Shown piece by piece: positions 20,898-26,902 of a stretch of DNA of 52,348 bases (positions are counted from its first letter, which is position 1; each line of letters opens with the position of its first letter). The notes under the pieces are model-generated. The model made no database searches. It saw only the letters and a program-made list of their open reading frames with translations, and had not been told where the DNA came from. Both the position numbers and the translations under genes were made by a program. The stretch comes from a virus. The DNA lies in the IMG/VR virus record IMGVR_UViG_3300049007_000012, positions 1-52,348 of that record. The stretch is one strand, 5' to 3'.

Positions 20898-21124
20898 CCT
20901 ACCCGCCGCCGATGGTGGTGGACGTGGGGACGGCCCGTCCTCCGCCGGCTCCCCGGAGGCGGCCCAACCCACGTGTCGGGGTGGAGCAGTTGGTCAGCTC
21001 GCCGGTTTCATAGGCCGGAGGTCGCAGGTTCAAATCCTGCCCCCGCCACCTACCCGCATCGCCGCCCCTGGCTCCGGCTGGGGGCGGCGCCGCGCCTGGC
21101 CTACCCGGGGCGGACCGTGGACCG
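20898..21124 (+). other. Terminase-portal intergenic region with three CCTACCCG motifs
   Basis: The 227-bp gap holds CCTACCCG at 20898-20905, 21049-21056 and 21100-21107, with a tRNA-Met gene between the first two. No credible protein gene is seen. The third copy lies 18 nt ahead of the portal start, so the region probably holds promoters for the tRNA and the head operon. Confidence 0.55.
20975..21050 (+). tRNA. Prophage tRNA-Met(CAU)
   Basis: A cloverleaf is evident: D-stem GAGC/GCUC, anticodon stem CCGGU/GCCGG with loop UUCAUAG (anticodon CAU), variable loop AGGUC and T-stem GCAGG/CCUGC with loop UUCAAAU. The acceptor GUCGGGG... aligned to CCCCGCC (G1 at 20975) has one mismatch at 2:71, and the 3' end reads ACC-U instead of a full encoded CCA. 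The CAU could be elongator Met, initiator or, if lysidinylated, Ile. A single tRNA between terminase and portal may adjust decoding or be a decaying copy. Confidence 0.75.
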
Positions 21125-23300: not shown

Positions 23301-23584
23301 GGCCGGTCCCGATCCCCGACGACCTCGTGCCCGCAGGGTGCAAGCGGTTCATCATCTCCGCCCCCGACGGCGACCTGACGAGCGACCAGATCCGCCCCGT
23401 CGAGGCCGTGGCCGGCGTCGTCGACGGTCAGGTGCTCATGTCCATGCTCCTGGCCATGGAGCCCGGCGACCTCGACCGGCTCCGCGCCATGGAGACCGAG
23501 CTGGGCGTGGCCGGCGTGTGGCTCACGATGATGACGAACCAGATCCCGGCGTTCTCGGTCGACATCGCCGACGCCGGAGCCTGA
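23297..23584 (+). CDS. Hypothetical head-region protein, paralogue B
   Basis: The 95-aa protein starts MRPVPIPD. It continues with KRFIISAPDGDLTSDQIRPV, equivalent to the pattern in the preceding gene, then a Met-rich helix (LMSMLLAMEPGDLDRLRAME) and a late strand (IPAFSVDIAD). GTGA overlap with paralogue A. It lies between portal and minor capsid genes, so a head-associated role is possible. Confidence 0.6.
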   Translation: MRPVPIPDDLVPAGCKRFIISAPDGDLTSDQIRPVEAVAGVVDGQVLMSMLLAMEPGDLDRLRAMETELGVAGVWLTMMTNQIPAFSVDIADAGA

Positions 23585-23587
23585 CCC

Positions 23588-24673
23588 GTGCCGGCCACGC
23601 CGGACCCCGACCTCGCCCTCCGCCTGGCCAAGACGACCGCCGACATCTACGGCGACGCCGCCGCCCAGATGCTCGACCTCGTCGCGCGCCGCCTCGCCAC
23701 CGGCATCGACCGGCCCGGCTGGGCCGAGGCCAAGCTCGTCGAGCAGATCCGCCTACGCGGCGACCTGCAGGCGATCGTCGACCGGCTCGCCGTGCTCGGC
23801 CCCGACGCCATCGGCGAAGCCCTGGCCGACGCATGGTCCGCCGGCCTCGACGACGCGCTCGAGGACCTGACCGAAGGCGAGGCCCGCGGCGGGTTCGGGC
23901 GGACCAACACGAGGGCGGTCGACGCCCTCGTCACAGAGACCGTCACCGCCGTGCAGTCCACGCACGGCCAGATCATCCGCTCCACCATGGACGCCTACCG
24001 CGCCGTGATCGCCGAGACCAGCGCGCCCGGCGTCGTCACCGGCACCGCCACCCGCCGCCAGGCCGCACAGCGCGCCCTCGACCGCTTCGCAGTCGAGGGG
24101 ATCACCGGGTTCCGCGACCGCGCGGGGCGCCGGTGGGAGCTGGAGTCCTACACCGAGATGGCCGTCCGCACCTCGGCCGGGCGGGCGCAGGTGGCCGGGA
24201 CGCTCGACCGGTTCGTCATCGCGGGCCGCGACCTCGTCATCGTCTCCGACCACGGCCAAGAGTGCCGGGTGTGCCGCCCCTGGGAGCGCAGGGTCCTCTC
24301 CATCTCCGGGCGCACACCGAAGGGCACCGTGCTGTCCGACGGCGTCCGCGTGGCCGGCACGGTCGCCGAGGCCCGAGGCGACGGGCTGCTCCACGCCAAC
24401 TGCCGCCACCGACTCACGGCCTACACCCCCGGCCTGACCCGCCCCGGCCGCCCCCAGTCCGACCCCGAAGGCGACCAGGCCCGCCAGCGGCAGCGGGCGC
24501 TCGAGCGGCAGGTGCGGGCGTGGCGCCGCCGCGAGGCCACCGCGCTCGACGACCCGGCACGGGCACGAGCGCGGACGGGCCTGCGGGACGCACGGGCGCG
24601 GCTACGGGCACACATCGCCGAGCACGACCTCCAGCGTCAGCCCGCCCGGGAGCAGGTCGGCCGGGCCCGTTGA
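23588..24673 (+). CDS. Phage minor capsid protein 2-like (MuF-like)
   Basis: The 361-aa protein matches phage minor capsid protein 2: a helical N-terminal half, then the conserved RRWELESYTEMAVRTSAGRA and the Cys/His site SDHGQECRVCRPWE ... LLHANCRHRLTAYTPG (about residues 220-285). The tail is a highly basic Arg/Ala coiled coil. Such proteins are injected or sit inside the head near the portal. GTG start 3 nt after the previous stop. Confidence 0.85.
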   Translation: MPATPDPDLALRLAKTTADIYGDAAAQMLDLVARRLATGIDRPGWAEAKLVEQIRLRGDLQAIVDRLAVLGPDAIGEALADAWSAGLDDALEDLTEGEARGGFGRTNTRAVDALVTETVTAVQSTHGQIIRSTMDAYRAVIAETSAPGVVTGTATRRQAAQRALDRFAVEGITGFRDRAGRRWELESYTEMAVRTSAGRAQVAGTLDRFVIAGRDLVIVSDHGQECRVCRPWERRVLSISGRTPKGTVLSDGVRVAGTVAEARGDGLLHANCRHRLTAYTPGLTRPGRPQSDPEGDQARQRQRALERQVRAWRRREATALDDPARARARTGLRDARARLRAHIAEHDLQRQPAREQVGRAR

Positions 24674-24681
24674 CCTACCCG
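24674..24681 (+). promoter_or_regulatory. CCTACCCG motif upstream of the scaffold gene
   Basis: CCTACCCG follows the previous stop immediately (TGACCTACCCG) and lies 9 nt before the ATG at 24691. The spacing equals that of the 19109 copy. It is a candidate promoter for the scaffold-capsid unit. Confidence 0.5.
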
Positions 24682-24690
24682 GTCGGGACG

Positions 24691-25437
24691 ATGACCCCGA
24701 TGCGAATCGACACCGCCCCCGGGGGCAACGATGACGATCTGACGTTCGACACGGTGCTGGTCGACGGCCGGCGCCTGGTCCACCTGTGGTCCGACGGCAC
24801 CGTGCTGCCCGTGGTCCGCGGCGGCGAGGGCCCCAACGATCCTCCCGCGGATCCGCCCGCTGACCCCCCGGCCGACCCGCCCGCCGATCCCCCCGCGGAT
24901 CCGCCCGCCGACCAGGCCAAGGGCGGCAAGGGCGACCAGCCCGTCAACATGACCCAGGCCGAGCTCGACGACATGATCGAGAAGCGCCTCGCCAAGGCCA
25001 AGGGCAGCTGGGAGTCCGACTCCAAGAAGGCGGCCGACCGGGCCAAGCTCGACGAGACCGAGCGGTTGAAGGTCGAGAAGGCCGACGCCGAGAAGGCCGC
25101 CACCGCAGCGACCGAGGCCGCCGCCTCGCGCATCGTCCGCTCCGACGCCCGCATCGCCGCCGTCGAGGCCAAGGTCAAGGCCGACCGCGCCGTCGCGTTC
25201 GTGAAGCTGCTCGACCTCTCCGACGTGACGGTCAACGACGCCGGCGACGCCGACGCCAAGGCACTCAAGAAGGCCATCGACGCCGGCCTCAAGGACTACC
25301 CCGAGTTCAAGGCCGCCGACGCCGGCAACGGCAACGGCAGGGGCGGCTCGAGCGGCGGGGACATGAACGGCGGCGCCGGCCAGGGCCGCGCCACCAAGAT
25401 CGAAGACGCCGTGGCGGCCCGCCTCAAGGCCGGCTGA
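24691..25437 (+). CDS. Capsid scaffold protein (GP20-like)
   Basis: The 248-aa protein has the features of a phage scaffold: a long charged coiled coil (about residues 85-165; AELDDMIEKRLAKAKGSWES), a helical C-terminus and a Gly/Asn-rich flexible tail ending in a basic helix (AVAARLKAG). Before the coil are six near-perfect copies of a Asp-Pro-Pro-Ala unit (nt 24838-24912) forming a rigid polyproline-like linker. It precedes the major capsid gene, as expected. Start fixed by the CCTACCCG motif and the beginning of good coding. Confidence 0.8.
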   Translation: MTPMRIDTAPGGNDDDLTFDTVLVDGRRLVHLWSDGTVLPVVRGGEGPNDPPADPPADPPADPPADPPADPPADQAKGGKGDQPVNMTQAELDDMIEKRLAKAKGSWESDSKKAADRAKLDETERLKVEKADAEKAATAATEAAASRIVRSDARIAAVEAKVKADRAVAFVKLLDLSDVTVNDAGDADAKALKKAIDAGLKDYPEFKAADAGNGNGRGGSSGGDMNGGAGQGRATKIEDAVAARLKAG

Positions 25438-25447
25438 CCACAGCACC

Positions 25448-25568
25448 CCTCCGACGGGAGGCGAAACACGGGCCCCACGGGGCAGGGGACAGCGCCGGCA
25501 CCCACCGGCCTCCGACGGGAGAGAAACGGGGCCCTCCGGGCCAGGGGAGAACGCTCGCACCCACGAGC
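25448..25568 (+). ncRNA. Tandem structured RNA element upstream of the major capsid gene
   Basis: Two adjacent units (25448-25509 and 25510-25568) share CTCCGACGGGAG, GAAAC, a GC-rich hairpin, AGGGGA and a final hairpin. The final hairpins are GCCGG-CACCCA-CCGGC (25494-25509) and GCTCG-CACCCA-CGAGC (25553-25568): two stem pairs change with compensation while the six-base loop is constant. The first hairpin is CCTCC-GACG-GGAGG or CTCC-GACG-GGAG. The second is GCCC/GGGC in unit 1 and GGCCC/GGGCC in unit 2. The AGGGGA segment could pair with the CACCCA loop as a pseudoknot. It lies in the 5' leader of the capsid gene; function unknown. Confidence 0.65.
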
Positions 25569-25594
25569 AGGACACCAGACGCACGGAGGCAACC

Positions 25595-26902
25595 ATGCCC
25601 GTCACCCTTGCCCAGGCCGCCCTCAACACGCAGGACGACCTCGACGCCCTCATCATCGACGAGTTCCGCAAGAGCTCGGCGATCCTCGACGCCCTCCCGT
25701 TCCACGACACCGTCAACCCCATGGGCGGCGGGACGACCCTGACGTACGGCTACCACCGGCTGGTCACCCAGCGGTCGGCCGCCTTCCGTCCGATCAACAG
25801 CGAGTACACGGCGGAGGAGGTGACCAAGGAGCGGTTCACGGTCGACCTCAAGCCCCTCGGCGGCTCGTTCCGCATCGATCGTGTGCTCAACGACATCGCC
25901 CGCTCGAGCGAGACGGCACTGCAGCTCCAGCAGCTCATCAAGGCCACCCGCACCCGGTTCCAGGACGAGGTCATCAACGGTGACGTGGCCGTCGACGCCA
26001 ACGGTTTCGACGGTCTCGACAAGGCCCTGACCGGCTCGACGACCGAGGTCAACGCCGCCGGCACCGACGCCCGCGCGGACTGGGTCGACCTGGACGCCGC
26101 GACCTACACGTCGCAGCGGGCCTACGACCTGCTCGACGAGCTGTTCGGTGTGCTCGACGGGCCCCCGTCGCTGCTCATCTCCAACGACCTGGTGGCGGCC
26201 AAGCTGCGGGCGATCGCCCGCCGGGCCAACGTCTACGTCGAGCGCCCGGTCGAGGGCCTGCGCGACAGCTTCGGCAACCCGATCAACCGGCAGATGGTCG
26301 GCAACGCCGTGCTGGTCGACGCCGGCGAGAAGGCCGGCAGCTCGCAGCGGATCGTCCCCGTCTACGACCCCGACAACTCGTCGTACACGATCACGCACTC
26401 GACCGGCACCGACGGCGGCACCTTCCGGGTGCGGGTCGACGTCAACGGCGACGTGGACGAGACCGACGAGCTGGCGTGGAACATCTCCACGGCCGACCTC
26501 GACACCGCGCTCGAGGGCCTGTCCAACGTCCCCGCCGGTGCCGTCACGGTGACGGGCTCGGCCGGCGTCAACTACACCGTCACGTTCGCCGGTGGCCTGG
26601 CCGGCCTCGACGTCGTGCTGTCCGTGGTCGACGACGAGCTGCTGGACACTCCGGTGCTCGAGCCCACCGTCGTGGCCGAGGCCGCCACGACCGGCGGCTA
26701 CTCCGACCTGTACACGGTGCGGATCGACATGGCCGACGGGTTCCACGGCGTCTCGACCACGGGCTCGCTGGTGCGCACCTGGCTGCCCGACTTCACCACG
26801 TCCGGCGCGGTCAAGGACGGCGAGTGCGAGATGGGCCCCGTGGCCGTCGCGCTCAAGTCGACCAAGGCCGCCGCCGTGCTCCGCCGGATCAAGGTCCGCT
26901 GA
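25595..26902 (+). CDS. Major capsid protein (HK97-like) with inserted domain
   Basis: The 435-aa protein has the HK97-fold pattern: an N-terminal helix with LDALIIDEFRKSSAILDALP, E-loop-like TYGYHRLVTQRSAAFRPIN, a long spine helix (TALQLQQLIKATRTRFQDEV) and LLISNDLVAAKLRAIARR. Residues about 273-368 are an insert with NISTADLDTALEGL, GAVTVTG and YTVTFAGGLAG motifs, a beta-bead domain known from other phage structural proteins. The fold resumes at DLYTVRIDMADGFHG. Shine-Dalgarno GGAGG (25585-25589) is 5 nt before the ATG, and a tandem RNA element precedes it. Confidence 0.92.
   Translation: MPVTLAQAALNTQDDLDALIIDEFRKSSAILDALPFHDTVNPMGGGTTLTYGYHRLVTQRSAAFRPINSEYTAEEVTKERFTVDLKPLGGSFRIDRVLNDIARSSETALQLQQLIKATRTRFQDEVINGDVAVDANGFDGLDKALTGSTTEVNAAGTDARADWVDLDAATYTSQRAYDLLDELFGVLDGPPSLLISNDLVAAKLRAIARRANVYVERPVEGLRDSFGNPINRQMVGNAVLVDAGEKAGSSQRIVPVYDPDNSSYTITHSTGTDGGTFRVRVDVNGDVDETDELAWNISTADLDTALEGLSNVPAGAVTVTGSAGVNYTVTFAGGLAGLDVVLSVVDDELLDTPVLEPTVVAEAATTGGYSDLYTVRIDMADGFHGVSTTGSLVRTWLPDFTTSGAVKDGECEMGPVAVALKSTKAAAVLRRIKVR

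Follow-up and report, generated by a model that had tools for sequence, protein, structure and literature searches.

Very short stems, with an A-rich strand crossing the first of them, characterize the luteovirus frameshift pseudoknots and the preQ1-I aptamer. The compact module described here, called E, can be likened to these by description only: it shares the short stems and the crossing A-rich strand, but has no known frameshift context or ligand, and is mainly intergenic and in tandem.

In layout, the nearest described element is the STAXI motif (RF01728), in which two or three pseudoknots follow one another in tandem (PMC2864571). Tandem pseudoknot repeats are common to both, but STAXI occurs in Enterobacteria, near genes for DNA-handling proteins, and has UUCG loops. 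The present element is not a member; the RF01728 model had no match at an E-value of 10 in the five records tested. Like E, the pseudoknot of the T4/T2 gene 32 leader is an H-type fold in a phage mRNA leader, but it occurs only once, has an A+U-rich run that binds gp32 after it, and controls gp32 rather than a capsid protein (PMC3014915); according to a 2010 review, perhaps no viral pseudoknot other than the T4-type one of gene 32 serves in translational autoregulation (PMC3014915). The HK022 put RNA, compared by description, is likewise a structured RNA (about 70 nt) near a phage transcript start, but consists of two stem-loops, belongs to early operons, and is presented in the available part of the source with no mention of a pseudoknot (PMC9378689).

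Two tandem units ahead of a major capsid gene

The window (the whole 52,348-nt stretch analysed here) is a virus record with genes in the order terminase, SPP1-type portal, head-scaffold, and PHROG 212 capsid protein; a tRNA-Met lies in its structural operon before the portal gene (20975-21050). Two abutting units (unit 1, 25448-25509; unit 2, 25510-25568) stand between the scaffold and major capsid protein (MCP) genes, each composed of two modules, E and then X:

23338-25437, + strand: upstream ORF with a C-terminal head-scaffold domain; its stop codon is 10 nt 5′ of E1
25448-25471, + strand: predicted pseudoknot E1; S1 25448-25452/25457-25461, loop GACG 25453-25456
25462-25468, + strand: crossing strand L3 of E1 (A-rich); S2 pairs 25455-25456 with 25469-25470
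25472-25483, + strand: hairpin P2 of X1, GCCC-CACG-GGGC
25484-25509, + strand: module X1; AGGGG (25485-25487) predicted to pair with CCC (25501-25503) of the CACCCA loop
25494-25509, + strand: P3 hairpin of X1
25510-25529, + strand: predicted pseudoknot E2; S1 25510-25513/25518-25521, loop GACG 25514-25517
25522-25526, + strand: crossing strand L3 of E2; S2 pairs 25516-25517 with 25527-25528
25530-25542, + strand: hairpin P2 of X2, GGCCC-TCC-GGGCC
25543-25568, + strand: module X2; AGGGG (25544-25546) predicted to pair with CCC (25560-25562) of the CACCCA loop
25553-25568, + strand: P3 hairpin of X2
25585-25589, + strand: GGAGG, probable Shine-Dalgarno sequence of the capsid gene
25595-26902, + strand: MCP gene, PHROG 212 major head protein

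A first-pass annotation had reported tandem units at 25448-25568 in the MCP leader, sharing the blocks CTCCGACGGGAG, GAAAC, and AGGGGA, with a compensated last hairpin (GCCGG-CACCCA-CCGGC in unit 1, GCTCG-CACCCA-CGAGC in unit 2) and a middle hairpin differing in both arms. All of this is present as described, and the flanking genes, a scaffold-domain ORF ending at 25437 and the MCP gene, agree with the placement. Its interpretation as RNA structure stands as well, but it overlooked that the first hairpin and the following GAAAC..CGG are themselves a predicted pseudoknot, and the widespread part of the element. E reads as a compact H-type pseudoknot: its stem of 4-5 bp carries a GACG loop and is crossed by an A-rich strand, and the CG of the loop is predicted to pair with the downstream CGG (S2). 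X comprises two hairpins (P2 and P3), with an AGGNG before P3 predicted to pair with its xxNCCA loop; in window-type loci, X stands between and after the E elements. Elsewhere in the window, the P1-GAAAC pattern is absent. No promoter-like site was found in the window leader, so its RNA probably arises by read-through from the scaffold gene.

As the annotation had suspected, the element falls in no class with an Rfam model: Rfam 15 covariance models gave no match at an E-value of 10 in 25400-25620, and none that was credible at the element in eight related loci, a snoZ206 match (E-value 4.9) ending in an element being attributable to chance.

The window capsid protein itself has an insert of about 100 residues (26390-26690) with a weak PHROG 5042 match, absent from the related loci L016 and L045; in L159 and L055, the corresponding region matches a major tail protein PHROG.

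Comparative evidence for the folds

Folding energy is uninformative here (z of -0.79 for the whole leader, unremarkable, and thermodynamic z-scores near zero), so the case rests on homologues. The search patterns fixed only the two inner pairs of S1. Even so, at least four contiguous S1 pairs are present in 43 of 44 curated elements, with four or five pair types at positions 3-5, and the covariation score of the outer pairs was reached by none of 500 shuffles (ungapped alignments, 4-bp and 5-bp classes). When the structure is slid along the alignments, the paired fraction drops to 11-47%; the 100% figure in register is partly by construction, because the classes were chosen by stem length.

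A length rule points the same way. The strand from S1 to the CGG is 5 nt long in 19 of 21 elements with four-bp stems and 7-10 nt in all 19 with five-bp stems, and crossing-strand length follows stem length (rho 0.77, with L054a omitted for an insertion); the correlation between stem length and loop-to-CGG distance was reached in none of 5000 permutations. Such coupling is what an H-type fold requires, because the crossing strand must span S1. In the window, L016, and L053, the first units have GAAACACGG and the second GAAACGG, and L045 has CTAATCACGG followed by GAAACGG.

Almost every copy has an S2 of just 2 bp, with little variation; in four-bp elements it is invariant, and so neither supports nor opposes the pairing there. 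Co-changes do occur in L055, where GACA accompanies TGG (CA:TG) and ATCCG accompanies CGGA (TCCG:CGGA), and in L170, where a CGCG loop meets a CGCG tail, and each of these changes keeps the right geometry. Together with the length coupling, these suggest a loop that pairs downstream and a third loop that spans stem 1, as in H-type pseudoknots. Pseudoknots of E geometry number 46 in 24 leaders, against 4.1 in shuffled leaders; 38 of the 46 are canonical and were in part found by pattern, which leaves the eight variants as the less biased portion, and some of these (in L016, L166, and the last in L170) resemble chance fits. A scan for S2 variants, a weak test because its pattern contained one G too many, gave 27 matches, of which only 4 had stems of at least 4 bp and none represented a new capsid leader.

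For X, the guess that AGGGGA pairs with the CACCCA loop has gained support from relatives in which the third pair changes from G:C to C:G or T:A: GGG:CCC becomes GGC:GCC in L016a and L053a, and GGT:ACC in L054a. The third pair is broken in L171/L156. Overall, 15 of the 17 units have a complementary loop pairing (p about 1e-5 by permutation, ignoring relatedness), and P3 stems vary freely yet stay paired.

Distribution among phages

About 100 related capsid loci were retrieved from IMG/VR with the capsid protein and a profile built from four members. Among these other uncultivated phages, tandem units occupy the same place in L016/L017, L045, L053, and L054; L056 has one full and one partial unit, and L002 and L055 have shortened arrays. 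With their covarying stem pairs, these homologous units uphold the earlier proposal of a selected RNA structure with compensatory changes. Many related MCP genes are without the element; those of the type found in Streptomyces, Gordonia, and Rhodococcus phages, among others, have short plain leaders. No E was seen by eye in named phages with related MCPs (AP45, D6E, phiSASD1, Jace, AGM10, SV1, and others), and BLAST of the leaders against named phages gave no meaningful match. The scaffold leaders of AP45 and D6E, both thermophilic phages, have a different hairpin and an A-rich tail, possibly another H-type pseudoknot (L264 640-747; L265 700-781).

A covariance model of the unit, a check proposed with the annotation, scored relatives strongly. 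Its seven seed sequences match by construction, but it also found L148, L143, and L130 outside the seed (E-values 4e-8 to 3e-7). Patterns at the DNA level, covering the first hairpin and GAAAC, extended the family beyond PHROG 212. The element precedes PHROG 267 capsid genes in L130, L143, L148, L156, L171, L173, L166, and L170; it is carried by the PHROG 371 capsid phages L149 and L161, in which a scaffold-like gene comes first; and it lies before or inside the starts of scaffold genes in L254, L255, L169, L172, L160, and L155/L167. In L168, the first ORF is scaffold-like without a PHROG match. Arrays contain one to three E copies, always in the sense orientation, and precede or overlap scaffold or MCP starts across three MCP families (PHROG 212, 267, and 371). 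The MCP leader was correctly named as a site of the element, but its occurrence before or within scaffold genes of unrelated phages had been missed.

With one pattern, 16 of the 22 matching contigs in the collection had their match at a capsid or scaffold start, a few of the 16 being near-copies of one another, and the other six matched elsewhere, apparently in ordinary coding sequence. The pattern had two matches in 396 actinobacterial genomes, both apparently within coding sequence. As a separate observation, several capsid proteins have a hydrophobic, membrane-helix-like extension before the usual N-terminus (L159 663-800; L173 1700-1835, minus strand; L060, L118, L123).

Position on the mRNA and possible roles

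The RNA of L166 and L170 should begin at the pseudoknot, since a sigma70-like promoter there ends 7 nt short of E1; in L169 and L172, promoter-like sites lie a few tens of nt before E1 (all of these are consensus matches only). Elsewhere, E1 comes soon after an upstream stop codon or a tRNA. L016/L017 (L016 701-772) and L159/L195 (L159 466-540) have a tRNA-Met just ahead of the array and capsid gene, a likely processing point; an extra hairpin lies between tRNA and array in both pairs. It is plausible, from sequence, that E arrays mark 5′ boundaries of capsid mRNA, presumably primary or processed ends.

The element and the start codon are separated by anything between about 10 and more than 65 nt. 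In L149, L161, L254, and L255, the last pseudoknot adjoins a GGAGG ribosome site, and in L160, L172, and L155/L167 some copies fall within the beginning of the scaffold gene. These in-gene copies are all in one frame, giving a DG..NTG-like peptide (L160 4899-4975; L172 11304-11330; L155 5183-5207). A peptide-level motif was rejected, as most E copies are non-coding. Pseudoknot-driven stop-codon read-through or frameshifting was also rejected: the array follows the scaffold stop at 10 nt in the window but at about 95 nt in L016, where a tRNA intervenes, and the capsid gene starts in a different frame.

Our preferred explanation is a cis-acting leader RNA of tandem E pseudoknots, with X in the window, acting as a road-block to decay; we put this forward tentatively as a whole, at somewhat under an even chance. 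That the RNA class is real (how E and X fold, where they stand, and that they recur) seems highly probable from the comparisons above; the decay-blocking mechanism is the more doubtful part, and rather less likely than not. Gram-positive bacteria use a 5′-to-3′ nuclease, RNase J. Transcription would place the array at the head of the capsid or scaffold part of the mRNA, where, being stiff, it could block 5′-to-3′ and 5′-end-dependent decay by RNase J-type nucleases; capsid or scaffold mRNA would then outlive its neighbours, and its protein would be made in excess. Two things favour protection of the downstream mRNA: the stiff array borders, on the upstream side, the late gene in greatest demand, and some relatives infect Gram-positive bacteria, which have this nuclease. 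Against it, the intragenic copies would save a message lacking its start codon; S2 is short and nearly constant, and the third X pair fails in L171/L156; and there are the promoterless window leader and the many related MCP genes without the element to consider.

The intragenic copies also keep alive models in which the array acts through a bound protein, on translation, or on the polymerase. The main rival is a translational operator, in which the pseudoknots bind a phage or host protein that feeds back on capsid or scaffold translation, as gp32 does. Arrays directly before MCP and scaffold starts fit this, as do near-invariant loop and tail letters (GACG, CGG, AGGNG, NCCA) suggestive of a recognised surface, last pseudoknots adjoining GGAGG in four loci (L161, L149, L254, L255), and the T4 gene 32 precedent (PMC3014915); but a capsid-specific binder is improbable when three MCP families share the same letters, and with the variable start-codon distance and copies within genes we consider an operator unlikely, if a serious contender. 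The ribosome sites immediately 3′ of the last pseudoknot in the same four loci, and the restriction to capsid and scaffold genes, both highly expressed, could also reflect a translation enhancer, a folded array keeping the ribosome site open or recruiting ribosomes. In the window, however, the start codon lies about 65 nt beyond the last E, with a further X module in between, and an enhancer is given little credence.

A nascent-RNA antitermination element acting on RNA polymerase, as put does, would suit a structured RNA near a presumed transcript 5′ end with a promoter-like site upstream in four loci, and might also be placed within genes, like the copies in L160, L172, and L155. The array sits in the middle of a late operon, though, not at an operon start, and put is described, in the available part of its source, as two stem-loops with no pseudoknot mentioned (PMC9378689), leaving this role improbable. 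Tandem arrangement, a compact H-type fold, and strict loop letters also recall small pseudoknot aptamers and tandem riboswitches; a pocket would have scant space in a loop of four nucleotides, however, the genes are structural with no metabolic theme, and no Rfam riboswitch matched, so that a ligand-binding role is very unlikely. Least probable by far are functionless GC-rich inverted repeats, arising by chance or coding similarity. The ordinary folding energy would agree with these, but they are already disfavoured by the covariation, the length rule, the 16 of 22 collection matches at capsid or scaffold starts, and the scarcity of longer stems (4 of 27) among S2-variant matches.

A literature search, with many subscription papers outside its coverage, found no report of the E/X element. 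Leader motifs of GP20, a scaffold-type protein, have reportedly been published; these might overlap the scaffold-leader members, and are the main doubt on novelty. We hold it possible, though unlikely, that this is a widespread and undescribed class of tandem pseudoknot arrays in unrelated tailed phages, dedicated to capsid and scaffold mRNA and working against host RNase J as bacterial equivalents of the exonuclease-resistant RNAs of viruses.

Phages need far more capsid and scaffold protein than other products of the neighbouring operon genes. The consensus given here is precise and testable, and the small fold, with its clear stem and loop length rule, may be a portable part for tuning mRNA levels. 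If used by phages with unrelated capsid families, it would represent a general solution to the demand for capsid and scaffold protein.
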